A stretch of 64,000 bases of DNA, taken from Filosporella fistucella. Taxonomy: Eukaryota; Ascomycota; Leotiomycetes; Helotiales. The position numbers and the translations under genes are program-made. How positions within the stretch are numbered: position 1 is the stretch's first letter; every line of letters begins with the position of its first letter. This document shows, in pieces, positions 22,177 to 40,522 of this stretch. The stretch is from the NCBI GenBank assembly GCA_030077755.1, contig JAQJZZ010000015.1, forward strand, positions 1,178,001 to 1,242,000, read 5' to 3'. Below the pieces are notes generated by a model, which saw nothing but the letters and a program-made list of their open reading frames with translations, did no database searches and had not been told where the DNA came from.

Positions 22177-25100
22177 ATGCTCACTTCAAATATAACAAAC
22201 CTCCCAATGGGCTCGGCCATTTCCCCCAGAGTGTTAGCTGCATCCACAACAATACTTCGAGCATCAGGGAGTCTGCCACGGAGACCACGATCCTATCAAC
22301 AAGTTCGAGCATTTCGTTGGGGTATTTGGTCATCATATCTGGACCCTGAATTCCAACAAGAGCTTCGACGACGACATCGTGTCATCAAACACAAATATGC
22401 TAAAGCACTGAATCGAGATCTGTCTTGGGATCGGCATTTTCCTAGTCATCCCAAACACTTGAGCTTGAAAGGGTTTATGTGCAGTGCATGGAGGGGCAGT
22501 GACCCCAGACCAGGTGGACGATGGGTCAACTTGAATGAGCTGAAAAGTACCAATGATAACTCTGGTTCTACTCCTGGGAAAGGAATTGAGGACGTCGAGC
22601 AAAGCGCGGTGAACAAACTCTTTGTGAGGCGCATCCGAAAATTCAGAGACCCGGATCAAGACCTTCCTCAACGACAGAATGAATTACAACGCTTTGTGGG
22701 GTCAATTTGGTCAGATCGTGGTGCAGCGCCACAATCAGAATCTGTAGTATATGGCCAAGAAGGTTCTCGACGTATTCAGAAAGAACAAACAGCCAACACG
22801 GAGCTGGAGTATGAAATTGACCCAATTACCAACCGGAAAGTATTCAAAAATACTTCTCATCAGAACGAAATCCTAGATCCAATTCCCGTGAATACTTTCA
22901 AGGGATATCGCTCTCAATTCCAGAATCACGTTCCACCAGAGTCAACCACCAATATACCATCGTCGAGATCCAGGCAACGACAAGAGAAAAGTGATCAGAA
23001 GCTACCTCCATCAAAGGAAAGCCAAGATGGCCTTGAAGCATATGACCGAAAAGTAGATTATCAATCAGGCCGATTATATCGAGGAAATGACAACGAAATC
23101 GAGTCTCATGAGCAGGAAGCACATGCTCAGCAAGGCTTTTGGTCAAATTTTGCCGCTAAGGAATCGCAGAAAACACAAGAACAACCACAGCCGGACACAT
23201 TGCTAGATCCGGTTCTGAAATCAGTGAGGGACTATGAAAATTCGAGCTCACGCAAAGAATATAAGAAAAAGCAACATGGTGAAGCTCTACTGGAGTCAAT
23301 TAAAGAATTTCAGTCAATGAATCATGACAGGGTTGTGGACGAAAAGGCCTCTTCGGATCCCATACTAACAGCAATCCGGGAGTATGAATCTGCCATCGAG
23401 TCCTATTCTCGGCATGGGAAATCGCAAGATGAAATTCTCTATCCCGTTCTCCGAGCTGTCCGAGAGTATAATGCTTCTTTGGCACGGAAATTAGATTCCA
23501 ACGACTTGGTCCGCAATCAAACGATATATGAAAAATTGGTTGAACTCGATCCGCTGTTGAGGTCAATCCGAGAATATGAAGCTGATATGGCCAATGGACG
23601 CATCCTGGAAACTAACCCATCAGCTAACTGCCCCGTTCAGGAGGGCTTGAGAGCCTATGATGAAAAAGTTGCCAACTACTCCAAGCCTTGGAATTGGTGG
23701 AAGTCTGCCAAGGAAGATATCAAGATGCGACAACCATTTCGAGGAGAAATCGAGCAAGAGGATATGGATCTGTTACGAGCTAGTGATGTGCGGTCAGCTT
23801 CAGGTATTATGAAGAGTTCAAACAAGGAGACAGAAGCGGAGAAATCCGCAGCTCGACAGCAATTGGAGGAAAATTTCGACAAGGCTCAGCAGGAACGATC
23901 TGAAGCCGATGAAGAAATTGCTGCTTTGGAACGTGTCAAGCTCCATCGTAGACTAAATGATGAAGTCGAGGAGCTTAAAGACCTACATGCTGAAGCTAGA
24001 AGTCGTGTGGATGCAAAGATTGCAGAGGTCGAAGGCAATCCATCCGTGCAGGGCAGCAAACAAAGTAAATTGAGCGGGAACTTCGTCCGAGATTTTCCAG
24101 AAGAATTCCAGGCAACCTGGACGGATCAGGGTAAACAATGCCTGGTTCCTAAAGATTCCGTAAATCTCACAGGGAAGCTTAGCAAGCAAAATGGAGACGA
24201 GAACGGATTTATTAGTGGACGTGCCTCTTCAGATGCATATAATCGCCGAAGCGATACACAGAGGCTTCAAACATCCTTGGACCGAAGCAAAGCTGCCTCC
24301 ACGGATACGGAAAATCGTAAGGCTCTTATTGATCCCTTGCAACAAGGCGAAGGTGATCTTTCTGCCTCTGTATCGTCGTATGGATTCCCCAAGGAGAAAC
24401 GTGCCGGTGAGACATCTGATAGCAGCAATCGTAAGCTTCGGAGACAAGCACAAGCTGCTAGGTGGCAAGGCGAGCAAGATTTCGTCCGCGAAATTCGTAG
24501 CATTTATGAAGACGCGTATGGAGTAATCGATACTAAGCACCGACAAGTCGGACCAGATGTCAGTGAGACTGCTACGAAATCAGCAGTTAAGACAGAAGCT
24601 CCTCCAGCGGAACCAACTCTTTATAGAATTCTTGCATGGGATCCTACCTCGCAGTCGATCAGCCAGGCTGAAACCTCATCCATTGTACCAGATGCTTCCA
24701 GTCCACTCACTCCAACAGAAGTGCTGCTACGTTTGTCCAATCCTGCCAAGTTTTTCGAATACTTTGGTGCTCTCCAAGCTGAAGGCTTCGAGATTGTATC
24801 AGGTGGCGGAGACATGCTCGTATTTCGAAAGGTGCGACCTCAAGCACCGCCTGGTACGAAGATCAGTGGAAGATTCAGATATCAGTCTCGAGATACAACA
24901 ACTACTAACCCCATCGATGGTATGCAAGGTAGTCCAAGGCCTGCCACTGGTGACTTTGCCAGCCCAACTGGCTTCGTCAACCATGATCTTCCCAGATGGG
25001 TTGATCCACCATTCAAATCCAATATAGATGTTCGTCGAGAGGAACCTGTCTTCAGCGGTAAGAGGAATTGGGAGGACGAGAACGAACACAAAGGTCGAAA

Positions 25101-25230
25101 GGGTGGTGGGAGGGCGAAGAAAGTTGTCATCGGCGCTGCTTGGGTGGCTGCTTGCTCGTATGCCATCGGTGTCGTCGCAGACTTCTTTAAGACAGGTGGG
25201 AAGGATGGTAAAGGTCCTCAGGGCTTCTGA
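22177..25230 (+). CDS. Large Ser/Thr-rich conserved fungal protein, probably mitochondrial membrane
   Basis: Single exon, 1017 residues from ATG 22177 (the frame extends five codons further to a GTG that I do not use). The N-terminus is basic, serine-rich and free of acids (VLAASTTILRASGSLPRRPR), like a mitochondrial presequence, then RAFRWGIWSSYLDPEFQQEL, a conserved block. Residues about 340-520 contain imperfect repeats of a D-P-x-L-x-x-(I/V)-R-x-Y-E motif (DPVLKSVRDYEN, DPILTAIREYES, YPVLRAVREYNA, DPLLRSIREYEA, CPVQEGLRAYDE). A coiled-coil-like acidic stretch follows (EENFDKAQQERSEADEEIAA). A conserved globular C-terminal block (TLYRILAWDP...FFEYFGALQAEGFEIVSGGG) precedes one predicted membrane helix near the end (VVIGAAWVAACSYAIGVVA). 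Homologues across Pezizomycotina are usually listed as serine-threonine rich protein; function unknown. Confidence 0.85.
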   Translation: MLTSNITNLPMGSAISPRVLAASTTILRASGSLPRRPRSYQQVRAFRWGIWSSYLDPEFQQELRRRHRVIKHKYAKALNRDLSWDRHFPSHPKHLSLKGFMCSAWRGSDPRPGGRWVNLNELKSTNDNSGSTPGKGIEDVEQSAVNKLFVRRIRKFRDPDQDLPQRQNELQRFVGSIWSDRGAAPQSESVVYGQEGSRRIQKEQTANTELEYEIDPITNRKVFKNTSHQNEILDPIPVNTFKGYRSQFQNHVPPESTTNIPSSRSRQRQEKSDQKLPPSKESQDGLEAYDRKVDYQSGRLYRGNDNEIESHEQEAHAQQGFWSNFAAKESQKTQEQPQPDTLLDPVLKSVRDYENSSSRKEYKKKQHGEALLESIKEFQSMNHDRVVDEKASSDPILTAIREYESAIESYSRHGKSQDEILYPVLRAVREYNASLARKLDSNDLVRNQTIYEKLVELDPLLRSIREYEADMANGRILETNPSANCPVQEGLRAYDEKVANYSKPWNWWKSAKEDIKMRQPFRGEIEQEDMDLLRASDVRSASGIMKSSNKETEAEKSAARQQLEENFDKAQQERSEADEEIAALERVKLHRRLNDEVEELKDLHAEARSRVDAKIAEVEGNPSVQGSKQSKLSGNFVRDFPEEFQATWTDQGKQCLVPKDSVNLTGKLSKQNGDENGFISGRASSDAYNRRSDTQRLQTSLDRSKAASTDTENRKALIDPLQQGEGDLSASVSSYGFPKEKRAGETSDSSNRKLRRQAQAARWQGEQDFVREIRSIYEDAYGVIDTKHRQVGPDVSETATKSAVKTEAPPAEPTLYRILAWDPTSQSISQAETSSIVPDASSPLTPTEVLLRLSNPAKFFEYFGALQAEGFEIVSGGGDMLVFRKVRPQAPPGTKISGRFRYQSRDTTTTNPIDGMQGSPRPATGDFASPTGFVNHDLPRWVDPPFKSNIDVRREEPVFSGKRNWEDENEHKGRKGGGRAKKVVIGAAWVAACSYAIGVVADFFKTGGKDGKGPQGF

Positions 25231-25399: not shown

Positions 25400-25692
25400 T
25401 TCTCCTCTCTTTCTACCATAGGTAGATAAGTCCACTCTCAATTAAGATTATCTTTTACTTCATCGTGCACAGGACTGTCAAATATATGGTGACTTAGTTG
25501 CTCTTCTCACTCCCCTCCCCCTTCGCACTAGGTAGGTGCCTTTCCTCCTCGAGCTTGCAAGCGACCCCGCGCCTGCGAATTCAACCTAATCTTTTGTTTT
25601 CCTCCTCCTCTTCCTTCCCTTTCAATTTCAATCAACGCAACTCAACTTAATTTCATCGAACTTGAAGGCCTCAACAATCTTCTTCCATTGAG
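25400..25692 (+). promoter_or_regulatory. Pyrimidine-rich promoter and leader of the modular locus
   Basis: CT-rich runs at about 25501-25520 and 25600-25625 are followed by an A/C/T leader low in G (about 25619-25660) and by ATGAG|GTAAGC at 25693. This arrangement is typical of well-expressed ascomycete genes and marks the likely 5' end of the plus-strand unit that follows. No TATA box is assigned. Confidence 0.45.
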
Positions 25693-26931
25693 ATGAGGTA
25701 AGCTTCTCTCTTCTCTGTAAGATGGCCCTTCTTCTCTTGATGGTTGATTCGAATTAGATCTCTTGAGAACTCTCTCGAGTCCTCTCCTCTCCCTCTCTCT
25801 CTCTCCTTTGGCACGCAGGCTACAAATCTTTCTGCCCAAGGGCAGCGCCACAGCGCGGAGGTCAATGGAGCGATAGCAAACACATGGACACATCGTCCTG
25901 CGTCCTCCATTGACCTCCCGCTCCTGGTGCTATTCCCGATAAGATCGCTCAAGGTGAGTCTTCTCATTCTTTCCACATCACTTCTACCCAACGCAATCAA
26001 TCTACACGATGCTGGTAAAGTATGACGACGAACTCATGGCATGTATCTAATGAATCACAACTCGCAGTCAATACGCCTTCCTTCTATCTCTGGGGGCCAA
26101 CAGATGGCTTACAGCTCGTCTTCGGACAGCCACGCCATTTGGACACATCGTCCTTGCCTCTGTTGGTCCCCACCATCTCACGAGCTGAATTCGAATCGAG
26201 TCACAAGTAAGTCTTCCATCTTACCCTTCCTTCACTGTTATGAGTCAAGACTTGTGGGTGGCATCTAATAGTTTGCGTAGAAGGCCACACAATACTCAGC
26301 ATGCGGGGGCCAATGGATGGCATGCCATTAAGCCTCCATTGGGCTCTGCAAGACTCTTCGTGTCAACCAAAGTAAGTTCATATCTCCATCTGCTCTGTCT
26401 TCGTACGCCTACGTCTCTTAAAATTTATGATCTAATCTATCCGCAGAGGATACAGATGGCAATAGAACCACTGTCGTCGCTCCTTCTTAGACTATTCTTC
26501 TACCGGGGGATTCAATATCATGTAAGTCTCTTCTCAACTCTCATATTCACGGTTGTTGACCGATATTATAGACACCTGTAACCACGTGCGGTCATCACCA
26601 TCAGCAGTTACATCAACCGTTGATGGCACTGGATACGCTAGTGTCCGGTGCCATCGCTTCTACAAAACCTTTCGACGCTCAGCAATCGACAACACCCTTA
26701 ACTCGTTCTTGCCTTCATCTTGATTTTTTCAGAGGTCAAACAACAATTTCACATGTGGTTCCCAACTGCTACATGGTCAAGCCTACTCGAAGTCAAGTCC
26801 GAGTTAGATGGGCAAGTGTCATATCTCACGTCACATGTCATACCTCAACATATACAAGTACTTGATTGATACTTTGTTGCAGCACAGCACGAAATCATAT
26901 GAGGTGGAAGGTTTGAAGTTCAGGAATTCAT
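25693..26931 (+). CDS. Candidate spliced reading frame through the hairpin exons
   Basis: Starting at ATG 25693 the exons 25693-25697, 25758-25953, 26068-26206, 26281-26371, 26449-26521, 26572-26811 and 26883-26931 can be joined without a stop, to TGA 26929-26931, about 262 codons. One acceptor must be taken two bases downstream of a CAG (CGCAGAG). No domain, signal peptide or known family is seen. Against coding: the homologous hairpin arms of the second, third and fourth exons fall in different frames of this join (their shared segment would read EVNG, GANRW, GANGW in a common frame, which this join does not keep), and the hairpins explain the conservation better. Kept as a low-confidence alternative. 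Confidence 0.22.
25857..25918 (+). ncRNA. Hairpin A1 (14-bp perfect stem)
   Basis: GGAGGTCAATGGAG at 25857-25870 pairs perfectly with CTCCATTGACCTCC at 25905-25918. The loop contains TGGACACATCGTCCT, itself a small GGAC/GTCC hairpin shared with hairpin A2. Sits inside the proposed exon 25758-25953. Confidence 0.7.
26091..26172 (+). ncRNA. Hairpin A2 (14-bp stem, one G-U)
   Basis: TGGGGGCCAACAGA (26091-26104) pairs with TCTGTTGGTCCCCA (26159-26172). The loop ends in TTGGACACATCGTCCTTGCC, sharing the 15-base TGGACACATCGTCCT with A1. Stem bases differ from A1 by paired changes (see findings). Proposed exon 26068-26206. Confidence 0.7.
26305..26346 (+). ncRNA. Hairpin A3
   Basis: CCAATGGA (26310-26317) pairs with TCCATTGG (26335-26342), extended outward across one mismatch. 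The loop starts with the 12-base palindrome ATGGCATGCCAT. The flanks align with A1 and A2 (GGGGGCC on the left side). Proposed exon 26281-26371. Confidence 0.6.
26622..26655 (+). ncRNA. Hairpin A4 (15-bp stem, 4-nt loop)
   Basis: GATGGCACTGGATAC (26622-26636) pairs over its whole length, with two G-U pairs, with GTGTCCGGTGCCATC (26641-26655), leaving loop GCTA. The core GGCACTGGAT/GTCCGGTGCC resembles the arms of A1-A3, so it is probably a fourth, shortened member of the family. Confidence 0.6.
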
Positions 26932-27204
26932 GACATACAACTCGATCTCAAGACATACTGACGTAGTTGAGTATTATATTTTGTCAAACAATATCAGGCA
27001 AGAGCAATTTGCTAACGTTATGCTATAGTATACAACGTCAGAATACTCGGGCCACGAAAGTGAAGGTTGTGGGCATAACTGGGTGGTGGGACTTGAGGAG
27101 GTTTATTTACAATAGGTACGTTGGTCAAAGCCTGCTATCACAACCTAATTCACTGTCTCCTTCCCTCGGACTCACATGTCACATACTGACACTCATAATA
27201 CAGG

Positions 27205-28260
27205 CTTAACTCACACATACTATCAATACCTTCGCAGACCTTTCTCAAAATCACAAGTGTTGATGTGCCAATCATAGTTCATCGTGCTTCATATACTCGT
27301 TTCTTTTTCTGGTCATCGTATTTCTTTTTCTCTTCTTTCTAATGCTATGATAGTATCATTTTCCACTGCAAAGTTTTGCGCTCTGTCCATGTTCTCTTCA
27401 TCTCATATAATTTCCCTTTTGAATATGTGCTGTAGTCATTCAGGGGGCCTCACGTACGCGAGGTTTAGCGAGCCTTCACTTCATCACTCAACTGTAGTGT
27501 GAATAGATGTGCTGTAGTAGTATCACGTTTCTGATTATTTAAGTAGATTTGAGTAGTGTCATTACGTTTTCAACTGTACAGGTTCCAGTAGTCTGGGATA
27601 TCTGTTTGCATAGATAATGGTGACGGCATATATTTGTGCTGCGTAGACTCGACAAGTCATATGTTTCCGATTGGTAGAGAGTAGTAGCCTTGATTTTCTG
27701 ATTTTGTGGAGTGATATTGATAAATTAGTATCGTAGTACTGATCTTGTAGACTCTATTTGGCTTCACAAATCTGATTGTGTAGAAAGCTGTGCATGAAGT
27801 AGTCTTCACAGTAGCCCTTCGCACCAGTGTCGCAAGCAGTAGATCCTTACTGTAGCTCTGCGCAGTGGTGCTTCGCAATGGAATTTCACAGTTCTTCATA
27901 GCAAGACTGTGTGGTATCTCATGAGCGAAGGATAGTAGCTTGAAGCAGCAGACTGAGGTTAGCCTTCACGTCCACAACTGCTGGCAGTTGTTGGGCTGGA
28001 GGTGGCAAGTGGTCGAGATTAGAATCCAACGTCTCGATCATACTTCAGTCTGCAAGATGGTGTGTTGTTTGAGCAAAGTTTGCTGGGGCTGGTCCCTAGT
28101 ATGCGAAGTGTGGAAGGTTCGTTATCCCTCTGCTGCTCCATTTGTCATGAGTCTTTCATTTGCTGGATATGCGCCATCACTATTCCCAGTTCTCATTGAT
28201 TACACGCTGTCACATTTAAGACCACAATGCTGACGCCTCTATTTTCGAAGTACTATAAAA
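27205..28260 (+). other. Part of the modular unit without a clear cassette
   Basis: Rich in GTAG/CAGTAG words between 27430 and 27900, which look like degenerate splice-site-like repeats, with partial symmetry around 27820-27875 (GCACCA...TGGTGC). A frame at 27940-28233 is open but unrecognised. No clean intron-exon alternation is seen here. Confidence 0.3.
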
Positions 28261-28540
28261 CAAGTTGGAGGGATTACAAAGAAAAAACACAGAAAAAGTG
28301 AGTAAGAAATGGACTTCGATAATGGTGATATTGCTAACGAATGCCGCAGAAAAATTCAAAAATACAAAAATAAAAATACAAGTAAGTCTCTAGCTTCCAC
28401 CCCCAAGAGTGTCTCCTGATGGATGTACAGGAAAAAAAGTTTGAAAATCGAAACAATACAAAAACACAAAAATTACAAAAAAGTGAGTATCAAAATTAAT
28501 ATAGTCCTGGGTTTTCCTGATGGTAGTAACAGAAAAAAAC
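28261..28540 (+). repeat. Three tandem A-rich mini-exons with about 50-nt introns
   Basis: A-rich segments ending at 28297, spanning 28350-28381 (32 nt) and 28431-28482 (52 nt), and restarting at 28533, are separated by introns 28298-28349, 28382-28430 and 28483-28532. All three have GTGAGT or GTAAGT donors and CAG acceptors; the last two end almost identically (TCCTGATGG, then ACAG). The exons are nearly free of T and C (words such as AAAAATACAAAAAT), unlike their introns, so exon and intron differ sharply in composition. This is strong sequence evidence that the plus strand is transcribed and spliced. Confidence 0.65.
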
Positions 28541-28595
28541 CCCCCATTGTACATAACACACTTCCCAGAAGCCAGACGACTTTCGAGCCTCTATT

Positions 28596-28671
28596 GAATG
28601 GGCTCTCTTGCTCTGTTGGCAACACACTGCCTTCAAGAAAGGGGAATCAGACGGAGCAAGGGAGCCCATTC
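28596..28671 (+). ncRNA. Hairpin D1, 22-bp uninterrupted stem
   Basis: Bases 28596-28617 pair without gap with 28650-28671 (22 pairs, three of them G-U), leaving a 32-nt loop. The stem core is GGGCTCTCTTGCTC / GAGCAAGGGAGCCC. The proposed exon is 28533-28693, ending at a GTGAGT donor. Size and pairing resemble a microRNA-like precursor. Confidence 0.65.
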
Positions 28672-28780
28672 CCTCAATCTCAAAAGCAACGCAGTGAGTG
28701 TCAAGACCGTTTCCTCCATAATTTTGATGATGAACGTTACTGAATTGAATTACAATTCAGAGCACACCAAGCCAGTATTT

Positions 28781-28979
28781 CCTCCCGGGGAAGGGAAGGA
28801 AGGGACCCTCAAACAAGTAAATAGACAACACACACGCAAATTGGTCCTCTTACCCAGGTTTTCAATATGGGCACCACCAGCTTTCCAGGAGTACTGGGTA
28901 AGGGGACCCAATTACCGTTGTCTCAGGCTTTATCAACGGCCCATATCCTCCCTTCTTCCCTTCCCCGATCCCTGGGAGG
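28781..28979 (+). ncRNA. Compound hairpin D2
   Basis: Outer stem: 28781-28786 with 28974-28979 and 28787-28800 with 28953-28966, separated by a 7-nt bulge at 28967-28973. Inside it, 28839-28857 pairs with 28894-28913 (core GTCCTCTTACCCAG / CTGGGTAAGGGGAC, one bulge, one G-U). The two stacked stems account for most of the exon that begins after the CAG at 28760. Confidence 0.6.
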
Positions 28980-29165
28980 TGACCGCAGTCTTGATCTGAC
29001 AGCCTAGGAGGGAACCATCATCCTTCATCTAGTGTTCGTAGATCGTCGCCTCCTGGGGATCAATTTACTTGTGGATTTGATGACCAAGTTTAAGGGTAGG
29101 CCATTACCTTTGATTGGAGAAAGAACTAACACATTATCTACAGATCGAAATTTCTTTTCGGACTG

Positions 29166-29215
29166 TAGGTGACCTCCCACGACACTAGACGAGCCGAGTC
29201 ATGGAAGGTCACCTA
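29166..29215 (+). ncRNA. Hairpin D3
   Basis: TAGGTGACCT (29166-29175) pairs perfectly with AGGTCACCTA (29206-29215), and CCACGAC / GTCATGG continue the stem with single mismatches. It follows the clean intron 29096-29143 (ACTAAC branch, CTACAG). Confidence 0.6.
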
Positions 29216-29825
29216 TAAATCAACGTGCGCGATTCTTAAAATGGAGATATCCGACTCCAATATCGGGTGGATCCTCTTCGTCAATGCCTCGACAATGCCC
29301 CTGGTCTCTTTCCTCTCCTATTTTAACTTTTCCCGCAGATTTTCAATTGCTAGGAAGAGACCTCAAGGCAAAGATATACTAATCAGGACTTGAGGCGTTC
29401 AGCCATTATCCAGCAGATGGTAGCCTCGCGGCATTGCCTTGTCTGACAGCTGCAAAACCAATTATCTGAATCGGCGGTTCCTCTCAGTTTTTTTGGTTTT
29501 TCTTTTTGGACCTGAACCAAGAGCTTTCGACACCATCATTGGGGCGAGGGGTAAGCTCGTTGAATCTTACTCTTCCGAGATTGGGCTAGAGCTACTTGAT
29601 GGCCGAATCCACAAGGCGACCATGTTCCGTGGCCAAACATACACAATAGCACAAGTAAGTTCCCTGCTCAGGAAGTTTCAACATTCTAGCTCTCTAACCA
29701 CTTTCCAGCGCATTGGCGTTGAAAGTCATTGACATTCTTCGTCTTCTTCGTGACTCGAGTCAGAGAACTCCCCCTCTACTTTTAAGCATTTCCTCTCCGT
29801 GGCGTGGGCGCCCAGAATACCCAGG

Positions 29826-29869
29826 GAATTCCAATCCATCTCTCCGGCGGGAGAGATGAGTGAGAATTC
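29826..29869 (+). ncRNA. Hairpin D4 in a TCAGAG exon
   Basis: GAATTC (29826-29831) pairs with GAATTC (29864-29869), and CATCTCTCC (29837-29845) pairs with GGAGAGATG (29850-29858) around loop GGCG. It stands at the 3' end of an exon that begins TCAGAGAACTCC at 29760 and ends at the GTAAGT donor at 29879. Confidence 0.6.
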
Positions 29870-30082
29870 ACTTGGAAGGTAAGTTGTGCTCAAATGTTTT
29901 GACTAAGCATTACGCTAACTAAATATTACAAGCACCGTCTCGTTTTTACCTTCTCGGTGCTGCTGAGAAGCCGGAAGGCAACGGCCAAAGTGAACATTTG
30001 AATATCAAAGTCATCGCTCGAAAACACACTCAATTCATACATCATGCCTTCATTCTTTCAAGTTTTCATTTCTGGAGCTTAC

Positions 30083-30385
30083 GGCGAGAGATCTTTTGAT
30101 CTTCTCTGCCAATGCTCGACAAGCACCAGATTCCATTGGACCACAGAAGTGGCGAGACGGAAAGCAATAACAAAAACAATGCCAGTCAGCACACCGCTGG
30201 CTGGCGAGGATGATGAATGCACTCAAGGGAGCGTAGGAGAAACCCCAAGAATTACAGTGAGTATCTCTCCGACCTTTTGGTTCCTGCGTTACTAAGAATG
30301 GCATTGATACAAGCTCACCTACTCAATTCATTCCTCATGCCTTAGACCCCTGTCCAAAAACTTTCTCCTGGTTATGAGGAAGTTT
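30083..30385 (+). ncRNA. Three further hairpins D5-D7
   Basis: D5 30083-30110: GGCGAGAGATC, loop TTTT, GATCTTCTCTGCC with two one-base bulges. D6 30181-30205: GCCAGTCAGC / GCTGGCTGGC, loop ACACC, one G-U. D7 30358-30385: AAACTTTCTC / GAGGAAGTTT with one G-U. D7 lies just after the acceptor at 30345. Confidence 0.5.
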
Positions 30386-30964
30386 CTGCTGTCTTCACAC
30401 TGAAGAACAGCTAGTCGTCGCCGCCTGCGGAACAATTGTTTGCCGATACCGTCGATGAGCAGGGCATTCCATATAATTTGAAGCCGCAACAAGCCCGGGG
30501 TCTTTGGAAAGTCTGGTAAGTCTTCAAATCTTCTCTCTGATAACTGATATACTCACTAGGGATATAGGACACTGGGTAGAAATCACATTGCGTCAATAAC
30601 ACTTTCTGGCTGGTTGAAAACTAGGAGTAGAATCAACGTCTTTACAAGAGTGCTGTGAGTGTTGTGCCGAAAGACCAGAAATCAAAGCTCAAGGGGAGCT
30701 ATCCCCGGCGGTCTAGTAAGCTGCTCCTTATAGGAATGTTTTCTTTACTGACTGGGAAGACTTACACAGATTTCACTTCCTTAGTTACAACTCAGATCTT
30801 ATATTTTTTCTTGGCACAGCCAAATATCAAAGCTCACTCAAGGTGTCAAATGTCTATTTAAGACATGAAACGGGGAAGGACAAGACGATAACATCATTTC
30901 TGCTTGGAATCATTTCACCACTCGAAACAGTGTCCCTTCACAACCATGAATACCAACAAAGACA

Positions 30965-31690
30965 GATCGATGACGGACGAGAATAGCACAACACTGTCGA
31001 TTTTTGTTCAGACGAAATCATCCTTTAAGACCTTCCATTCTCGTATACAAGACTATCCATTCGTCAGACGATATGCAAACATAGAGAAAAGACATCGGGT
31101 ACATGTACTCCTTCTCGAACAGTCCTTTGTGGAACTTTCACCAATCTCAGGGAGGCCATCACTAAGCGACAATGATTCATATACCTCCACATCTATTTGG
31201 TCGATTCTCTGTGGAAGATTCATCGAATGGATAAGAACGTTAGGGGATGAGGATAATCTTGTACTTGTACAAGAACATCAGCGGATGCGAAGATGCTGCC
31301 TCTTTACGCCGGAAATTCACTTATCGCAGTAAGAACTACAACGGACGAGAATGATTTTTTACAAAGATATTCGCCTCTGTCAAGATACTTCCTCCTCAAG
31401 CGAATATTCACTACGCGCAACAAGACTATCAACGGACGACAATGATATTAGACGTCTATACTTGTTTCGACAATTCCAATAAGGACCGAGGACGGACGAG
31501 AATGATTGTACACCAGATCATCAGTATTCGGAAAGATGCTTGCTCTATACACCGAGAACTCTCTCACTGCATCGAGACTATGAACGGACGATGATGATTC
31601 TAGTGCATCTATACTAGTTTCGACGATTCCTTGAAGGAGATTAACCAAGCGCAGCGAGACCGGGGACGGACGAGAATAGACCAAGTCATA
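30965..31690 (+). repeat. ACGGACGAGAATGAT cassette series (six copies)
   Basis: Copies of ACGGACGAGAATGAT or close variants at about 30973, 31335, 31434, 31491, 31583 and 31668. Three are preceded by a related CACT..GCGCA/CGCAG..AGACTAT stretch. Two copies share a further downstream segment (TCTATACT.GTTTCGAC.ATTCC). Spacing is 57-100 bases in the 31.3-31.7 kb part. No protein family fits. Confidence 0.6.
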
Positions 31691-31956
31691 AGTGTTTTTC
31701 TAGAGGACCAAGTATGCGAGACCAGGAATTCAAGAGAAAAGACTAAGTCACCAGTCTTTGGCAGGACAATTCTCCAGAAGCAGAACAATAGTCAGCACCG
31801 CGTCTTATTCCACAGCTTTTGACATCCTTTCTCACGAACAAGAAATCCTGAGGATCAGGCTTCTCTAGCTGCTTCTTCTGATGCAAATGACAGACGTTTC
31901 TTCATATACCTCGAGCGATCTTCCGTTAGGAAATTGGAGAAGAAAGCTTAGTTCTC

Positions 31957-32657
31957 GCAACAACAGGTTGTATCCTTGAGACGGAGAAGAAAAAGTCGTT
32001 GCTTTCTTCGCTGTTCTTACGTTCATTGTAGGAATCAACATGGATGGGTGCATTGACCTCCCGAATCTACTTTTACTGACCCCTCGGTATGATCTGGCGA
32101 GGGCGTCATGGTACATGGCGCCTGCCTCCGTTTGCATTCGGATATCCTGCGGGTTTTGGTGGTGTTGTGACAGGAAAACCTCCCTGCTGGGTCAGTAGTA
32201 TGAGAACACAAAGCAATTCCAGGACATCACTAATGTCTTTAAAAGTTTGATCCTTGAGAGGGAGAAGAAAAAAAGAATTCCATTTCTTTGATCCAAATTT
32301 TAATTGCATTGGTTGGAGAAGGAAGGTATGTATTTGCATGAATCCCATTGCAAGAACGAGCTAATATCTCAAACAGGTCTTATCCTTGAGACGGAGAAGA
32401 GAAGAGATTTGGAACTTCTTGGTCCCAACTCAATCTCGCTGAACCGGGAAAGGAGGTTCGCCGCAATGGCATCCTCCCTCAAAACAGCCCCCGTGAAAGA
32501 GAAACTCTTCTAGAGATGCTCAGAAGCAGCGGGCCCCCTTTCCCAGTTGAGAGAGTGCCTGGCTCTGAGCCCAAAAATTAAGGCAAATCACCAATTTGGA
32601 AGACGTTTCTCGACGAGTTCAACACAGGTCTTGCCCTTGAGACAGAGAAGAAAATTT
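31957..32657 (+). repeat. CCTTGAGACGGAGAAGA exon series (four copies)
   Basis: Copies near 31973, 32250, 32380 and 32633. Three directly follow an ACAG and one an AAAG, so the repeat marks an exon 5' end. The copy at 32380 follows a short GTATGT...AAACAG intron, and the copy at 32633 ends at the clean intron 32697-32757 (GTAAGA, CTAAC, TGCAG). In one frame the core reads LETEK(K/R), but one of the four copies reaches a stop within about 15 codons. Confidence 0.55.
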
Positions 32658-32794
32658 TTGTTTGCAGAAATTGGCGAGTTGGGGACTGCTTTGGTGGGTA
32701 AGAATATTTAGGCAAAATGGCCAATCTTTTCAATAGACATAACTAACGAGTGTGCAGAACATAGCACGATGAGGGCTGTGCCAAACATACAAAA

Positions 32795-33322
32795 GTGGTT
32801 GCTGGTGGTACCCTGGCTCAGGGAGTCGGCTACGGAATGACATTCCTTGGAATCGATGTGGTCAAGCTTGGCGCCAGTATCCTCGAGGCTGAGGCTTTGA
32901 ATTCAAACGTCATAGGAGCCATTCCAACAAAAGCAACACTAATCATGACGCTGGCAATTCGGACCCTAGATGGAAAGTCGCTCCGGGGGGCGACGCGAGG
33001 CAACTCCGACACTCAATATGACTCTTCAAGTCATGATGGCGCTTGGAAGCCTGGTGGGGATACAGAAGACAAGATGGAACATCGAACGTCGACCAAGAGT
33101 ACCAAGCACCCTGAAGCAGATGAAAATACCGGAAAGACAATCAATTTCATGCTTCCCTATCCGGATATCACCGGAGAATTTGGTCGTGGGCATGTGTGGG
33201 GAGAGTGTTGCGAGGCGACTCCGACAATGGAAAAGCTGCTCTGCAGTTTTAGAGTGCCGGGTTGGCCATTCAGCAACTTGGTACAATCATCGATAAAGTC
33301 CCTGCTCTCAAAACATAGTTAA
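32795..33322 (+). other. Open frame of about 175 codons inside the modular unit
   Basis: No ATG at its start (GTG) and no recognised domain. It begins like GGTLAQGVGYGMTFLGIDVV and ends in the first copy of the 168-bp duplication. Its length without a stop is unusual for the region and may mark a coding remnant or an internal exon. The frame also runs through the first GGCAACTCCGACA element. Confidence 0.3.
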
Positions 33323-33503
33323 TGGGGCTTCGGCCGTCACTATGAATTTGGACGTGGCCATTTGATCAGAGAGTATTGTGAGGCGACTCCGACAATGGAA
33401 AGGCTGCCCTACAGTTTTAGAGTGCCGGGTTGGCCATTCAGCAACTTGGCACAATCATCGATAAAGTCCCTGTCCTCAAATCATAGTTAATGGGGCTTCG
33501 GCC
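33210..33503 (+). repeat. 168-bp tandem duplication
   Basis: 33210-33335 and 33378-33503 align with no gaps at an offset of 168, differing at about seven bases in the first 126. Both start GAGGCGACTCCGACAATGG and end GGGGCTTCGGCC. Related single motifs occur at about 32993 and 33531. A possible GAG-GCGA-CTC tetraloop hairpin lies at the start of each copy. Confidence 0.8.
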
Positions 33504-36500
33504 ATTGACGCAAAGATTATCGCGAGGCGACTCCGATACTCACTGCCAGTTACTCTTGTCAAAGATGGCGGGTGCCATCTCATCACCAACTGATGGGAGA
33601 GATTCTTTCTCTATCATGAGGGGAAGATGAAGGAGGGGTCAAAGTTATGGTTGATTCACAATACCTTGAAGTGAGATTTGGGCCGGGGAGAAGATGGAGG
33701 AGCTGTGCGGAAGTGTATTGTACAATGTATGAAGTTAGCTTAGCCAATAAACAGACCGTCAAACTTAGCCGCTTCGGCGTGCATGGTGTTGTGTGAGGAT
33801 GCTGAGAATACAAAAGACACAGGTAAGAAACCTCTTGGCTATATATATAACCTGTCCATACTCATGAGATATGCTATGTACAATACATACTGACAAACAA
33901 CTAGAAAACAAATATTACCAAAACATTTCAACAGCCAACATGTTGGGAAGAGAACATCTTCCGCGTTGAAATCAAGCATAACCTACTGCTCAATTCGTTC
34001 TTCATGCCTTAAGATACCTAGCCTGCCTTGAGGAGAGGTTTGGGGGTTTCAATTTGAATCACCTCCTTTCAGTATCCTCACTCAGTGAGGATGTAAGTTG
34101 CTGATATTTTAGAAAATGTAATTGCTGAGAGACCCCGTTAACTTGACTCCACAGGCACCTCTTTGTTCAAGATCAAAAAGATTTCGGACAATTGTTTGCG
34201 GCCGGGTCGGTATTTGCTTTACTCATTCAATATTGAAGATCCGTTGTTCGACGATATACCGAATGATCTTTGAAGAAGGCAGTGTTCTCGAGACTCGCCA
34301 ACTTCCCGGTACCATTGAACATCTCGACCACATCATTGTTAAGGACAAGTCCAACTTCTTTTTGCGGAAAGATTTTGGTGAGTAAACCACCATCCAGATT
34401 TTACTTTCTTTGGGCATCTTGGTGGCAGAAGCTATCTCGATGGAAATCTTCTCTAACTATGGCAAAGCTCCTTCATTAGCCTGTGATCAGCAAGATACTG
34501 TTCGTGAAACTTATCGAACAGCCACTAGCTTTGATAAGAATAAGTTTGACGGCCATGTCAGACGAGTTTCGAGCCTCCTTACCGAAGGAGCGATTCTCTA
34601 GCGATAGCGAAGTGGAAGGGAGGGCGACTATTAGCTGATGAATTCGGCAATGCCGCATCCATGAAGATTCGGGCTTTGGATGGAAAGGTATGCAATACCT
34701 GCTTTCATGGTTTTCCATGTTTGCTGATGTCTTCAGTCTCACGATGGTGCTACACTCTCTTGTAAAGAAGCATGCCTTGACAAGCAAACAATGGCAACTC
34801 CACATCGGTGGCCATTTCAAGTTTTGCGACTGAATTGACTGTAAGTTATCACCATCCTGAGTGCAGAAAAGTGAAGGTTGTCGATGGCCAACTTGCTGAT
34901 GCCATAATATAGCCTCCTGGAAGCATCGCTCTAGCCTAGTTGTGCCTGCCCATTCAATGGCTCCCATCTGCTATTCATTAGTAGTCATGCGTGGATTTCG
35001 CATGTACTCACCAAGAGAGTCAACGGAAGAAGCGGAGCCAATTCCGAGGTAAGATAGCACAACTGTCATCCCACTCTTCTCTAAACAACAATGATATGAG
35101 CGTCGGCATTCAAATGTACAATGCTAACAACGCAAGTGACAGCCCATCCAAGCGGAATTAAAAAGCGTCGCTCGATCTGTCGTCCGGCGAAAAGTGACCT
35201 CCCTCCAGGCTACCCCTCCAGGCTCTCCCTTTTCCCTTCAGGCTTCTCTTCCAGGCTTCGGCTCCAGGCTAGATTTCTTGAGCATGTCAAGGCACTACGC
35301 AATGGCTTTTGTCTGGCACTCCCTGCCTTGCAGGATTTGCCAATATCAAGAGACTGGCAGCCCTTATCGATATCAATTTGGGCATCGACGACTATTCGGA
35401 CATGATAGTTGGGCTTTCGAAACCCACTGAGAAACCCCTTTAACTCCCAAGCTGTGCATGATCACGTCCCATACTTTCAGGATTCGCCAACGGTTTTTTA
35501 CATCGACCCCCGCAATAGATCTTGCAGCCACAAAGATCTTCTTCGAGAGACAAGGAAAGGGATATTGCGTGGAAACTATTCCTTCCCGCGGATTTTCAAG
35601 GGACATCGAGAGCGCATCGGACCCGACAAAGGTGTCGAGCCTATATACTTACTCACACCTCACGGACTCGAACATTCTATTCTTCAGAATCTAGTCGATG
35701 AGCACCACATCAATTTGCAGGAAAGTGCTGCTTGGAATTGCCACTCCAAACTCCAACCCAATGGCGGGGGTGCCCTGACTGGCCTGAGTGCCAGTCAGCA
35801 GCGCTCAGGAATATAAGCGCGAGTATCTCTCCTTGGAAGGCAGCGCAGTGGCCAAATGACCCGTGGTGGAGATAAATGGTTCCAAGGGACCGGTGAAGCA
35901 TATTCTAAAGCATAGTCCAACTGTTGGTCTTTGGAATGGGCAAACACAATGATGGCACTTCTGGCCACTGGAACATTATTTTCACGCCAATTCTCTTACA
36001 CAGCTTCACAGCTACAACAGCGATCCCAGCGAACACTTCATCAACAAGCACTGATGCAACAATCTCAGATGCAACAAGGTCTCAATGATAGCCTGGTGAC
36101 TATCTGGCTCTTATTGTATGCTTCCTAAACTTAAATTTCATCATAAAAATAGAGGAGAAACTGACATCAGATAGGGTATGAATCGGAGCCCACTACCCAA
36201 GGTATTCTTGGTGCCTCACCGATAGGCTCCATGCTCGAAAAGCAAGTGTGCCAATTGAGCATATGCTTCTGGAGTCTGACGGCGCTCATTTCGAGGTTTT
36301 GACATAGGGGAGTGAATTTGGTTGTTAATTGTACGCCGGACCGAAGCCTGCCATGGCCGTCAGTACCCCGTGAAAGTTATCCTGAGGGATATCATGGAGT
36401 TTTGCTGGTGCCAGAGACCAATGGGCACTACAACTACCACAAAGCCCGGGGAGCACGACTCTTAAGATATTGGGGGCGAAAGTGGTGGATTGATGGCGAT

Positions 36501-36740
36501 CTCTCTCAAAGTGAGTTTCTTAATAAATCTCAAGCAGCAGCATTAACCCAAGAAAAGGACGGGACGAAGTATAGAGGGAATTTCATTACTTAGCAATTCA
36601 CGAATCTGACGGAAGCTCGCCTCGGCATGCCAGCAAGCCAATTCCTTTAGCACGATACACACGTTATCTGCATCCTTACTTGTCGTTGTTGTTTTTGTCG
36701 CCATTCTGAGAGCTGGTCTCTACGGACAACTTCCGCGTAA
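33504..36740 (+). other. Modular unit, mixed segment
   Basis: Contains a clean intron 34378-34428 (GTGAGT...GGCAG) joining two open frames of about 87 and 63 codons, neither recognised. A short tandem repeat CTCCAGGCT/CTTCAGGCT (five copies) lies at about 35203-35271. CTCAATTCNTTCNTCATGCCTTA occurs near 33990 as it does before the acceptor at 30345. GTTAATTGTACGCCGGAC near 36324 recurs near 38518. Confidence 0.35.
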
Positions 36741-37308
36741 AGAAACTGACGGAGGGGGCGACCCTTTCCACTATGTCAATACCTGGAGAACTCTTCCTTC
36801 TCCTTCTCCATCAGTTGTTTTAGTATTGGATTGGATGTGCTGTCTTGTTCTTGTTCTTGTTCCGGTCTTCAGCTGGGCTCCACGACAAACCCACTGTTGA
36901 GAAACTGACGTGAGGGGGCGACTCCTCGAACCGAAGTGATCGTTCTGTAGTACACGTTATTCTCCTGCTTCAAGCTTGGTCTCTGTTTCTTTTCTGGAAA
37001 TATTGAACCTAAACTCATTGCAACGGACCCAAGACGTTTCAAAGGCTCCGGCCTTTATAAATGGGAGGATTCTCCAGGATTGGGTTTGTCTCTTATTAAT
37101 CTCGTAGCAACTGCGCAGATATTCTGACTAACGGGTCTACAGAGCACCATTGAGGAGTGTGCGCTACACAGGTCAGCGGCCATTTCTCTCATTGAGAAAA
37201 TGACGGGAGGGGGCGACTCCTCCCACCAAAGTGTTTGTCCAGGAGTACACTTCGTTCCCCTCTCCGAATTTCACGCTGAAAACCTGACAGGAGGGGGCGA
37301 CTCCTCCT
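36741..37308 (+). repeat. AACTGACGGGAGGGGGCGACTCC series (four copies)
   Basis: Copies at about 36741, 36899, 37194 and 37278. The last three end GGGGGCGACTCCTC and can form GGAG/CTCC stems. Core GGCGACTCC is shared with the 33 kb duplication, which suggests related families. An intron 37084-37142 (CTGACTAAC branch, CTACAG) precedes the third copy. The frame from 37200 to 37481 is open. Confidence 0.55.
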
Positions 37309-37524
37309 TGCAATGTCAGTCGCAAATCAACTCGAAGATCAAGTCACTGCCCGTGTCAACTATCCCCCCAACATTGGAGGTACCGCAAAGCTCAATGAGT
37401 GCATCCGCGAACTTTTATCCATTCTTTGCAAGTCTTGAACTTCGCGATAGGCTGGGCCCCCTGATCTTGAAGAACAAATAACGTAATCAAGTTGAAGAAT
37501 CCTTACAACAACACGAACTTAAAG

Positions 37525-39621
37525 TCAGAGAACTTCCCCTCTACATATGCCTCTGCATTCGAACAAACTATGAAGGGGATCCAATCTCCATTGGAGATTT
37601 GATACTACCTGAATAGCACAGGGATCATTCAAATACAGATTGCTTGCGATCTTGTGATACTCTGCCACCAAGCTGCAGCCAGATTGGTGACCAATGGAAG
37701 CACTGGCAACCTCAATTCCGAATGAATAAGGCCAGAGAACTCGCCCTCTATTCAAAAGGCAGAAAATACCCAAAAACCAATCAGTCTTCGAGAACTTAGA
37801 CCTCAAACCTTCAGCTTGAGCATTGAGTCTTCCTGGCATGCATTTAGAAGACCTTTCTGCGTCGTTGTATGACCCCGTTCCGAGATTCCCATTGTAAATT
37901 ACATACACATCAAGTTGGGCCGTTCAACGCAGTTTCGTTATTCTACACTCTATTCCTGCTCTCAGGTTGATCCATACATGTCATCGTGCACTGTTTGCCC
38001 AGATTTACCGCTCCAATCTCTATCGCTGCGACTTAATAAAACGACGAACATCCTACGCTGTGTTCATACAGTATCACGACCTAAAGCTTTCTTTCAGCTA
38101 TTGAAGTTCTGGGAAGCCTTGTACAAATCGCTTTGATCTGGATACCTCATACAACAAGCTCCTGGTCTCGCAGTACGACTCTTTTCATCACAAGCCCAGA
38201 CTCGTGTTCTTCAGCTTTGATGGTACGAAAAGCTGCATTTGGAATTTTGGTGCTTGCAAATACAACCAAGTTTAAGAAATCACTCGAGAACAAGCACCTG
38301 CCATCAAGCATTCAGATAAACAACTTAAGACATATAAGACTTTGTTTGCCGCTTCGACTAACAACACCACGATGCTCAAGTATTCCTGCCGAAAGCAGAG
38401 CTGAGTCTGAGAATCACCCTCTAACGCCAAAGCCAGCCTGCTGCCCCAAGAGAGCCCCTCCCCTTATGAGACCACTCTATACAGAACTCCCAGCCCGTAC
38501 CAGTTCTAAGTCGGTTGTTAATTGTACGCCGGACGGCCGAGGCCTGCCAAAGCCTCAACAAGATTCCGCAAGAACTCGATTGACAATACTGCCACCAACC
38601 AGCCTTGGCCTCTAATCATTCGCTTCCCCGGTAATAATTCTGCTACAAGCATTCTTTACTTGATCATACAACAAACCAAAAGCCGTGGGAGCGATCCCGC
38701 GTAATGCACACCAGTCAGAGAACTCCCCCTTTATCACCAAGCAAAAGTTTGTTACCCAGCTTTCAAATCTCTGCTCTCCTGGTACGGACAAGCGCTACAC
38801 GCTTAAGCGTGAGCTGAGTTGGGACCTCGTGCGTTCGGATGAGAGTTCCTGGCAATAATGCTGAAATGAAGTCAGAGAACTCCCCCTCTATCTGCTTTGA
38901 CAAGATCAAATATCCAGGGCTCATGGTCCCGGAAAGCCAGCTCCGTGCTATGCTAGCTTTTAAGCAGAAAGTGGATGAGGCTTTTCGGGATGTTTCTTCT
39001 CAAACATGACTTTGTCAGGGTGTCTTATGGGAGGGAGGGATATTCGAGGGGATATTGGCATGGTTTCCATTTTTTCCATCATGAAGAGGCGTGGTGGCGT
39101 CTGCAGAATGAAAGCAACCACCAAGATCTGCACTAGAGGCCATTCTACCCAGGATCGCTCCCAAGTCTTCGTCACAGACCTCCAAGTAAGCATCATCTTT
39201 TTCTTCTCTATGGAAGAGAAGACAGGATACCAAAAGTCAGAGAACTCCCCCTCTACCAAGCTAAATTTACTGTTTAGCAGGAGCTTTTCCACATCAGACC
39301 AGTTTCACCTGATATGCAGGACCGGGCTCGACATCCACCAAGCTAGTCAAGAGCACTCGCTGCGAAGCGATGCTTTGAAGATTGAGGCCTGATGGTCGGA
39401 ACTCAGCTGGTCTAGTCAGATAGCTAAGAGAACTCCCTCTCTACATATTCAAAGTTCCTGCTCAGCAATCAAATCAAAGCTCCCAAATCCCGATGAGCAG
39501 GTAGCCAGCCCAGTCGCAGATGATAGCCAATATGAGGACGAGCAGCCCACGGATAGCACAAGTGGTGGTAGAAAACAAAAGGCTACGAAGAAGATGGGCG
39601 CCGAGAGAACTCCCCCTCTAC
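37525..39621 (+). repeat. TCAGAGAACTCCCCCTCTA exon series
   Basis: Copies at 37525, 38715, 38872 and 39237, plus one at 29760, each immediately preceded by AG (AAAG, CCAG, GAAG, AAAG, CGAG). Variants lacking the exact start lie near 37731, 39424 and 39601, and a weak one near 38408. The copy at 39237 follows intron 39186-39236 and that at 38872 follows 38829-38871. Following sequence is private to each copy and often holds a palindrome: AATCTCC/GGAGATT at 37583-37599, CACGCTTAAGCGTG near 38796. In frame SENSPS the exons stay open for roughly 25-50 codons. Confidence 0.6.
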
Positions 39622-39760
39622 AAGCTTTCGGTCATCAAACCAGCCCTCAGTCATCTCCTGCTCCCAGCTCCGAGGACCGGTGTCGAGGAATGGTTTTGGA
39701 AGTTAGGGTGGACGTCCTGACACCAAGTGAGGCAGGGAGTTTGTGTGTGCTGTGGTAAAA

Positions 39761-39780
39761 GTTGAGGCGCGAGCCTCAAC
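39761..39780 (+). other. Hairpin with GCGA tetraloop near the 3' end of the unit
   Basis: GTTGAGGC (39761-39768), loop GCGA, GCCTCAAC (39773-39780): a perfect 8-bp stem capped by a GNRA loop. It follows the last cassette copy by about 140 bases. Confidence 0.6.
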
Positions 39781-40522
39781 ACAGCTACGTTCTTCTATCC
39801 TCAGAGTACCTAGCATCACGAATTGATCCGGTAGCTGTATGGAGTGTTGTAAGAGTACGGAGTGTGTTGTAAGATTAAGTATATGATTATGGAAGATTGT
39901 ATGATTACGAGAATATTGTGTCTAATCGAGATTCTGAATCAGAATGTGATGATATCAACTGTGATCTGTAATTGCAGCTAGATATAAGACCACCAATGTT
40001 TTAAAAACTAACAAACAGCCTATCCTCCCACCTCAGTTCCTTCTGACGCTTCAATTCCTCCTACCTCAACAGGATACTAACTTCAGCGACATTTCTAGAA
40101 CATCCAAAAACATGTGATAACTTGATGGTAGGTGAGTCCTGCAACTCGTTGACACATCACTTGAACAGAACCTCAAAACTCTAGGCGGATACTAATACCA
40201 CAGCGGAATTACTTTCCAAACTCCAATCCCTCCTCCCCGAGAAAGTTGGGCCATAATAAAACAAACAGGCATACGGCATTGCAAACGGCATCTGAGAATT
40301 CTCTTCCTTTCCTCCTATACCTATATGTATCGGAAGAGAGCCAGTGTGTTATCCGCATTTTCGGATGTGGGCTGGTCACGTTTTTAGGGGTCTTACCCCC
40401 TGAATTGACATCGCAGAACGAAAATTTGACAGGCAGAATTGATGACTATATGGAAGTTTGGACGAGAAAACTTAATTTCATTGCAGTGATCATATTTGAA
40501 TTGAAAACTCCTGACTAGATGC
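39781..40522. other. Intergenic, no gene seen
   Basis: AT-rich. Repeated GTGTTGTAAGA words near 39845-39875. 3' flank of the dioxygenase gene. Confidence 0.4.

Follow-up and report, generated by a model that had tools for sequence, protein, structure and literature searches.

How does a genome come by a 14-kb locus that carries introns and families of repeated blocks but no recognizable protein? The question arose in a window of 64,000 nucleotides of Filosporella fistucella (contig JAQJZZ010000015.1), the whole stretch of DNA that was analysed. The appearance of the locus is that of a spliced RNA gene assembled from dozens of small snippets of host genes, nearly all of them in the same orientation. 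On its flanks lie a conserved 1,037-aa ORF (22117-25230) and, beyond 40 kb, further genes. On the letters of the DNA, we consider this anatomy (non-coding, spliced on the plus strand and bearing sense host pieces) very probable. In the literature that we searched, mostly outside subscription journals, we did not find a description of such a locus.

Introns, repeats and hairpins

Protein-coding capacity appears to be absent from the locus, as the first-pass annotation of this DNA had supposed: no Pfam family was matched in any of the six frames, translated with X in place of stops, and stops and indels occur in the donor frames of the pieces described below. A protein-coding mosaic was rejected on the same in-frame stops, indels and lack of a Pfam match.

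From the intron anatomy, a spliced non-coding transcript of the plus strand is plausible. A strict rule (GTRAGT, a branch-point match and YAG within 42-110 nt) found ten introns on the plus strand and none on the minus strand, against a mean of 0.86 and a maximum of 4 in 200 first-order Markov sequences. With GTRNGT the numbers were 13 and 0 (Markov mean 2.7, maximum 7), and with the loosest rule tried they were 14 and 3. The enrichment on the presumed transcribed strand exceeds chance. At least 20 introns throughout the 14 kb had been proposed; the enrichment stood, but the count dropped to 13 under GTRNGT and all introns lay between 25.6 and 34.9 kb, with none at 37.3-39.8 kb by these rules, which longer or unusual introns would escape. 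The A-rich mini-exons said to lie between introns are present at 28.3-28.5 kb. None of the 13 introns overlaps a donor piece, a biased count, since an insert would push an intron past the length limit.

The successive families of repeated blocks are real. The CTTGAGACGGAGAAGA, GAGGCGACTCC-type and GGGGGCGACTCC-type motifs have four copies each in the locus, and the ACGGACGAGAATGAT-type motif has six if its two listed families are counted together. Allowing one mismatch, AGAGAACTCCCCCTCTA occurs eight times in the locus and twice elsewhere in the genome (reversed control, 1), and all three genome-wide matches to GAGGGGGCGACTCCTC fall in the locus. At this tolerance ACGGACGAGAATGAT has three matches in the locus and eight elsewhere, compared to three for its reversed control, and the motif is therefore not clearly locus-specific. 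Local duplication, as a 168-bp tandem duplication and dispersed short motifs, accounts for part of the locus. A tandem-repeat lncRNA alone was rejected as leaving the donor matches unexplained, and a snoRNA host gene was rejected as the rRNA piece was the only Rfam match in the window at gathering thresholds.

The locus had also been expected to present many hairpins. Strong hairpins are found at its 5' end, where H1-H3 are related to each other, but the locus overall is not unusually structured. Folding z was below -3 in 10 of 235 locus segments (4.3%) and in 2.4% of 250 control segments; eight of the ten lie before 30 kb, the strongest being at 25.84 kb (z -6.2), and the mean z is near that of the control (-0.35 vs -0.17). 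The inverted repeats that we list are those of 25.6-30.0 kb.

Pieces of host genes in the locus and elsewhere

The main point, missed by the annotation that had recognized the introns and block families, is the presence of host-gene pieces. Eleven donor genes yield 43 matches (20-201 nt), of which 41 are in sense orientation, and the sense matches to these unlinked genes account for about a fifth of the locus sequence. The donors include genes for a DNMT5-like protein, an RRM protein, a DED1/DDX3-like helicase, SUMO, BUB1 and a MIZ-finger protein, among others. Counted as 44, the donor matches total 3,061 nt, 49 nt of which lie beyond 39780. Of the two antisense matches, one stems from self-complementarity within a sense piece and the other (E 0.035) is at chance level. 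A degenerate copy of a known coding gene had been named in advance as an observation that would count against the first interpretation; what we found is a modified form of it, with pieces of many genes and not of one.

Three control windows, the later two of which share 5.2 kb, gave 1, 2 and 4 donor matches versus 41 for the locus, and the reversed locus gave none in each of 12 donor loci. A genome search returned 24 matches elsewhere for the locus and one for an equally long control stretch; it misses short pieces, as the RRM gene used as query recovered one of its about ten sites in the locus. Because the donors were chosen on account of matching the locus, the donor list is incomplete. Three additional low-identity tblastx matches to the donors were excluded from the counts. 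The donor strand is uncertain for two loci (L014 and L018), some contig 17 pieces sit 0.9-1.6 kb past the helicase ORF, and none of 7,999 scored candidates was, at E 0.001, a homologue of a 657-aa ORF that is a donor on contig 10.

Donor order is scrambled in the locus and insertions are nested (Table 1). The pieces look non-coding from their decay relative to the donors: in-frame stops occur in 8 of 26 rows and indels in 9 of 26, and divergence is 10.9, 9.6 and 20.0% at codon positions 1, 2 and 3. Another way to read the third-position excess would be that the pieces were once under coding constraint. We draw no conclusion from the apparent lack of overlap between pieces of different loci: chance values were 0.24, 0.06 and 0.74 for three genes, in a simulation that left out a second 19-nt contig 6 match overlapping a counted one, and two of the RRM pieces share 6 nt.

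Table 1. Features of the locus, by position in the window
Feature	Position	Strand	Basis
Whole mosaic locus, presumed spliced non-coding transcript(s)	25640..39829	+	plus-strand intron enrichment, donor matches, Pfam-negative
Exon with hairpin H1, 14-bp perfect arms 25857-25870 / 25905-25918	25820..25955	+	segment z -6.2
Two exons with related hairpins H2, H3; intron 26207-26280 between	26068..26371	+	arms 88% alike over 17 nt
RRM-protein gene sense piece, directly 3' of a 3' splice site	26447..26470	+	E 7e-4
Hairpin H6, arms 26622-26636 / 26641-26655	26611..26655	+	5' arm overlaps weak RRM sense match 26611-26636, E 0.03
Three introns around A-rich mini-exons	28298..28526	+	intron scan
Hairpin, 21-nt arms, 90% complementary	28596..28671	+	inverted-repeat listing
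Nested hairpins with RRM (28862-28886) and DED1-like (28907-28944) sense pieces	28786..28967	+	inverted-repeat and donor matches
Hairpin, 3' arm DNMT5 sense, 5' arm antisense to DNMT5	29166..29215	+	inverted-repeat listing, pairing test
DNMT5-like sense piece, donor-contiguous, broken by rDNA piece	29183..29625	+	donor match
LSU rRNA piece, antisense to presumed transcript	29387..29485	-	93% identity to rDNA copy, contig 17
SUMO gene sense piece, 96.6%	29955..30013	+	donor match
DNMT5-like sense piece with in-frame stop	30393..30497	+	donor match
ACGGACGAGAATGAT-type motif copies	30973..31680	+	motif listing
CTTGAGACGGAGAAGA motif, 4 copies	31962..32654	+	motif listing
Contig 9 gene (L019) sense piece	32122..32177	+	donor match
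DNMT5-like sense piece, 90%	32761..32954	+	donor match
Contig 10 orphan-ORF piece with inserted block (GAGGCGACTCC motif and RRM pieces); 168-bp tandem duplication	33029..33503	+	
RRM sense piece across exon-exon junction; tandem copy 33222-33251	33390..33419	+	donor match
RRM sense piece (33571-33594); piece of contig 19:512k (33730-33809), its donor strand uncertain	33571..33809	+	
L019 sense piece, 97%	34301..34338	+	donor match
L019 sense piece retaining probable donor intron	34667..34773	+	donor match
DNMT5-like sense piece, 92%	35266..35406	+	donor match
SUMO (35538-35560) and RRM (35794-35826) sense pieces	within 35538..36085	+	donor match
Contig 10 349-aa ORF (35856-35956) and MIZ-finger gene (36014-36085) sense pieces	within 35538..36085	+	
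Two DNMT5-like sense pieces, donor order reversed	36236..36415	+	donor match
GGGGGCGACTCC motif, 4 copies	36738..37316	+	motif listing
Contig 15 gene piece, probable retained intron; donor strand less certain	37017..37167	+	donor match
RRM (37234-37253) and L019 (37334-37421) sense pieces	37234..37421	+	donor match
AGAGAACTCCCCCTCTA motif, 7 of 8 locus copies; remaining copy at 29762	37525..39620	+	motif listing
DNMT5-like sense piece with in-frame stop	37541..37713	+	donor match
BUB1 sense piece split by insert: RRM 5'-leader piece (38636-38676) and AGAGAACTCCCCCTCTA motif	38545..38840	+	
DED1-like gene locus sense piece, ~73 nt interruption	38971..39212	+	donor match
DNMT5-like (39464-39560, 39772-39829) and RRM (39713-39733) sense pieces	39464..39829	+	donor match

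Judged by such matches, snippets of several of these donor genes also lie in at least one further place in the genome. On contig 6, all six donor matches, from the DNMT5-like, RRM and DED1-like loci, lie on one strand, and one piece lacks the donor intron, matching across an exon-exon junction (8/10 then 15/15 nt). Contig 3 holds DNMT5 pieces, including a hairpin made of a sense arm and its inverted copy (arms of 27 nt that are 93% complementary, around a loop of 23 nt). Its antisense arm could pair with DNMT5 mRNA, with 26 of 28 nt paired at a predicted -40.1 kcal/mol and a minimum of -23.9 among 200 shuffles. When hairpin arms were set against their own donors, two of six beat all 200 shuffles; among the three from the window, one (29166-29183) did so, by a margin of 1.2 kcal/mol, and the reversed control of the hairpin-to-donor matching yielded 6 matches. 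The site on contig 9 (L046) has the AGAGAACTCCCCCTCTA motif in common with the locus and no donor signal (2 matches vs 5 in the reversed control). The one on contig 16 (L047) has four donor matches, two of which are the same 15-mer, against one in the control.

Origin of the pieces

We suggest, at a little under an even chance, that a non-coding locus spliced on the plus strand grew by repeated uptake of host transcript pieces in the sense direction. The pieces, of 20 to about 330 nt, would have been taken up repeatedly from some of the same genes. They would stem from spliced and unspliced RNA, either by template switching during reverse transcription or by RNA-templated repair, and would then have been joined into the locus; to this RNA derivation we give nearly, though not quite, even weight. 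Some pieces may have been duplicated in inverted orientation, giving hairpins with one arm antisense to the donor mRNA, and miRNA-like hairpins would be a by-product of RNA capture.

The spliced-looking pieces are one in the locus and one on contig 6, and two locus pieces probably retain introns. The exon-junction match in the locus extends just 5 nt past the junction, in an RRM transcript assembled from splice consensus without cDNA. The probable retained introns count against an RNA origin because DNA copying would keep introns, and so does the antisense rRNA piece, because simple RNA template switching does not give antisense. Neither a long poly(A) nor a target duplication was demonstrated; for the duplications, the borders of the pieces are too decayed for calling by eye. 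Capture at the DNA level is possible.

A transposon such as a Helitron or Pack-MULE might have captured gene fragments as DNA, with the orientation bias arising from selection on the transcript of the element. The scrambled order and shared orientation of pieces from unlinked genes, the two probable retained introns and the antisense rDNA piece would all fit. We nevertheless think this unlikely, given the exon-junction pieces and the lack of a terminal inverted repeat (best local score 24 between 25.0-26.1 and 39.5-40.4 kb; shuffled mean 21.6, maximum 27). The 5' end has no second copy (25400-28500 matches itself only), 37300-40000 matches only donors besides itself, and the six-frame Pfam search of the locus found neither a transposase nor a helicase domain, nor a Helitron Rep/helicase protein. 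A TIR transposon as such was rejected on its absent terminal repeats. Templated insertions at a break-prone transcribed site, with antisense pieces purged as they would form dsRNA with donor mRNAs, could account for the nested inserts, the rDNA piece, the short piece sizes and the presence of both intron-bearing and intron-less pieces. This is improbable as well: 41 of 43 sense pieces would demand strong selection, and the same donors, not random ones, recur in the locus and on contigs 6 and 3.

The reading first proposed, a single spliced RNA that grew through repeated exon duplication and presents many hairpins, agrees with the intron enrichment, the motif families, the tandem duplication and the kinship of H1-H3. 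Duplication did occur but is not the main source; pieces of other genes form about a fifth of the sequence, and the hairpins are concentrated before 30 kb with a near-control mean; its chance appears slim. A decayed protein-coding gene or plain pseudogene cluster is very improbable. The coding-derived pieces and a coding-like signal (31% on the plus strand vs 18% on the minus at the lowest threshold; Markov controls 13-18%) lend it weak support, against which stand the scrambled order, the unlinked donors, the in-frame stops and indels, and the absence of a Pfam match.

Known systems and possible roles

Young miRNA or hairpin-RNA genes can be made by inverted duplication of a piece of the target gene, and an inverted duplication with an antisense arm is the architecture proposed for newborn microRNA genes. 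The contig 3 hairpin, with its DNMT5 sense arm and inverted copy, resembles them; within the window the likeness is putative, as just one arm clearly beats its shuffles, and barely. The piRNA clusters and transcribed silencing loci rich in fragments produce a long transcript sampling other sequences, but their pieces are antisense and from transposons, whereas those of our locus are sense and from host genes.

In the MINE chimeric retrogenes of Magnaporthe, WEIRD RNA is fused with the MGL LINE, and the direct fusion of different cellular RNA copies is attributed to template switching during reverse transcription (PMC2104539). MINE resembles the locus in being fungal and in fusing cellular RNA copies, a non-coding RNA among them, but it is present in many copies, each of just two or three parts, with a LINE end and target-site duplications (PMC2104539). 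Here a single locus holds pieces of at least 11 genes with nested later insertions. At the protein level, no LINE-derived part or RT domain was matched by Pfam in six frames of the locus. The parts of LINE chimeric retrogenes are sense transcript copies, as are 41 of the 43 pieces here, the antisense rRNA piece being the exception. Gene-fragment capture by Helitrons (for fungal ones, PMC4289320) and Pack-MULEs likewise brings short pieces of unlinked host genes into one transcribed unit, but the locus differs in having no TIR, single-copy ends, no transposon protein and at least two spliced-looking pieces.

If the locus acts, it would most likely do so by giving rise to small RNAs directed against mRNAs such as those of DNMT5 and the RRM protein, or by serving as a sense decoy for them; we regard such a function as somewhat unlikely. 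Rather doubtful, too, is a broader proposal, that a dispersed family of RNA genes, with spliced transcripts assembled over evolution from sense pieces of regulatory mRNAs (recurring donors: DNMT5-like DNA methyltransferase, RRM protein, DED1-like helicase, SUMO, MIZ-finger, BUB1), might form through inverted copies hairpin small RNAs against the same genes, as a self-written regulatory array. If the pieces are RNA-derived, information would have flowed from message to DNA many times at one place and with certain genes preferred, where single events are usually known. The locus offers testable material on the origins of new non-coding RNA genes and hairpin small RNAs, and it allows one to ask whether a DNA methyltransferase gene is the target of its own captured pieces.

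Donor genes and strand of the pieces

The genome comprises 45.8 Mb in 19 contigs, and the window is 1178001-1242000 of contig 14. The 1,037-aa ORF that adjoins the locus has its best named relatives among helotialean fungi such as Cadophora, Rhexocercosporidium and Hyaloscypha (~40-43% identity, most of the length covered), which points to a leotiomycete-like ascomycete, and listerin exons, a C13 peptidase, a fungal transcription factor and a phenol-hydroxylase-like ORF also lie near it. The whole locus gave 24 matches elsewhere in its own genome, versus one, paralogue-like, for an equal-length stretch just downstream, and searches with thirds to fifths of the locus gave the same matches again. 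Its first 3.1 kb had no match elsewhere in the genome.

One donor, DNMT5-like, encodes a C5 DNA methylase that also has SNF2-type parts; its best PDB match, 7r76, was deposited as DNA repair protein Rad8 and corresponds to the Cryptococcus Dnmt5 structure. Domains identified further donors as a DED1/DDX3-like helicase, SUMO, BUB1, a MIZ-finger (SIZ/PIAS-like) protein and a 601-aa RRM protein; L012 (contig 10), L013, L014, L018 and L019 (contig 9) had no clear family. The contig 10 donor ORF is either an orphan or in the wrong frame.

A relaxed search inside the donor loci recovered additional short pieces; at E ≤0.05 per donor there were 44 matches totalling 3,061 nt: 41 sense, two antisense and an rRNA piece. 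Two of the sense matches are copies in a 168-bp tandem duplication, leaving 39. The DNMT5-like gene accounted for 11 matches of 20-201 nt (10 from one stretch, one from the next), and RRM gene pieces of 20-41 nt occurred at 10 places. Three controls cut from the same 64-kb stretch, two of which overlap, gave 1, 2 and 4 matches versus 41 for the locus, and the reversed locus gave none in each of 12 donor loci at E 0.1.

Matches were searched without strand preference. Donor strand was set by a long ORF or domain for nine donors and was uncertain for L014 and L018. All nine donors with an assigned strand were represented in sense (~0.004, sign test), or nine of ten counting the rRNA piece. Of the two antisense matches, one falls on the self-complementary centre of a piece that is itself sense, and the second is pyrimidine-rich (E 0.035). 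Some helicase-locus pieces lie beyond the end of the helicase ORF.

Possible sources, nesting and probable decay of the pieces

Nuclear RNA and DNA are both possible sources of the pieces. Two pieces keep what are probably donor introns, and the rRNA piece lies antisense; both speak against RNA. However, an RRM piece runs across a predicted exon-exon junction, its match reaching 30 nt (E 4e-7) in the spliced sequence and 25 nt (E 7e-4) in the unspliced one. A piece on contig 6 crosses another predicted junction (25 nt, E 3e-5 spliced vs 16 nt, E 0.017 unspliced). Because sense pieces are in excess, we prefer RNA as the source.

The order of the pieces differs from that in the donors, and some are nested: an rDNA piece lies inside an otherwise contiguous DNMT5 piece, a motif block interrupts a contig 10 piece, and a BUB1 piece is split by an RRM piece with a motif. 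Divergence at codon positions 1, 2 and 3 was 10.9, 9.6 and 20.0%; in-frame stops occurred in 8 of 26 rows, among them one tandem copy and two rows whose donor frame is uncertain, and 9 of 26 had indels. We therefore read the pieces as probably decaying freely while the donors are under constraint. Former coding constraint on the pieces themselves could also explain the codon-position pattern.

Coordinates of features in the window and in other stretches (L numbers)
Feature	Position	Strand	Observation
NLR-like protein	window 4528-7089	minus	853-aa ORF, NACHT-type and DUF7791 domains
Adjoining ORF	window 22117-25230		1,037 aa
Intron-retaining pieces	window 34667-34773, 37017-37167		probable donor introns
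Stretch common with contig 6 locus	window 34920-34966; L049:1935-1980		47 nt, 79%, E 2e-4
CTCCAGGCT-type repeats	window 35199-35258		similar to repeats next to LSU rDNA, contig 17 (79-85%, 39-59 nt)
Contig 10 donor ORF	L012:4713-6683	minus	657 aa; no homologue at E 0.001 (7,999 candidates scored)
RRM gene intron 1, contig 4	L022:3757-4359	minus	~600 nt, long CCACTCACTCAT-like repeat; splicing predicted
AGAGAACTCCCCCTCTA motif copy, contig 9	L046:1256-1275	minus	beside TCGTCGTGATAG-like loose repeats, ~1440-1830
Small unit, contig 16	L047:1040-1900	plus	intron-like sequence, AGAGAACTCCCCCTCTA motif, strong hairpin

Introns, motifs and related loci

Plus-strand introns clearly exceed chance in the locus: a strict rule found 10 (0.86 expected) and none on the minus strand, a looser one 13 (2.7 expected) and again none, and the loosest 14 and three. 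The last lies at 34.9 kb under the rules applied. The block and motif families are real, and one is exclusive to the locus genome-wide at ≤1 mismatch. Strong hairpins are present, concentrated 5' of 30 kb. The features described in the first-pass annotation are therefore true, but its at least 20 introns were too many and the reach of its hairpins was overstated.

Querying the genome with the RRM gene turned up one additional place, a 2.2-kb locus on contig 6 with one DNMT5 piece, two helicase-locus matches and three RRM pieces, all six on the same strand; its reversed control gave two matches. The 47-nt stretch common to this locus and the window is perhaps from a further donor common to both. 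Using the initial 5 kb of the DNMT5-like donor stretch as query led to a locus on contig 3. It holds a 95-nt piece as well as a hairpin formed by a 65-nt DNMT5 piece with its own inverted copy. The antisense arm of this hairpin is predicted to pair with DNMT5 mRNA over 26 of 28 nt (-40.1 kcal/mol; best shuffle -23.9); two of six hairpin arms tested in three loci beat all shuffles.

The AGAGAACTCCCCCTCTA motif is the only feature common to the window and two more places, on contigs 9 and 16. The contig 9 place had no donor signal; its TCGTCGTGATAG-like units, spaced every 50-70 nt by eye, are similar to the window's ACGGACGAGAATGAT array. The contig 16 hairpin has 28-nt arms, 79% complementary, and a 15-mer of one arm matches RRM mRNA weakly (E 0.018).

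Relation to known chimeras

The closest published case found is that of the Magnaporthe chimeras, which PMC2104539 describes as WEIRD RNA with LINE or SINE copies and attributes to template switching. By comparison, the window has no LINE protein, and its parts are far more numerous. Transposons carrying gene fragments are the other relative, and searches for terminal repeats of the locus and second copies of its outer parts found none. The mechanism proposed for the locus is a reasoned guess; the locus itself is a real, unusual non-coding mosaic.
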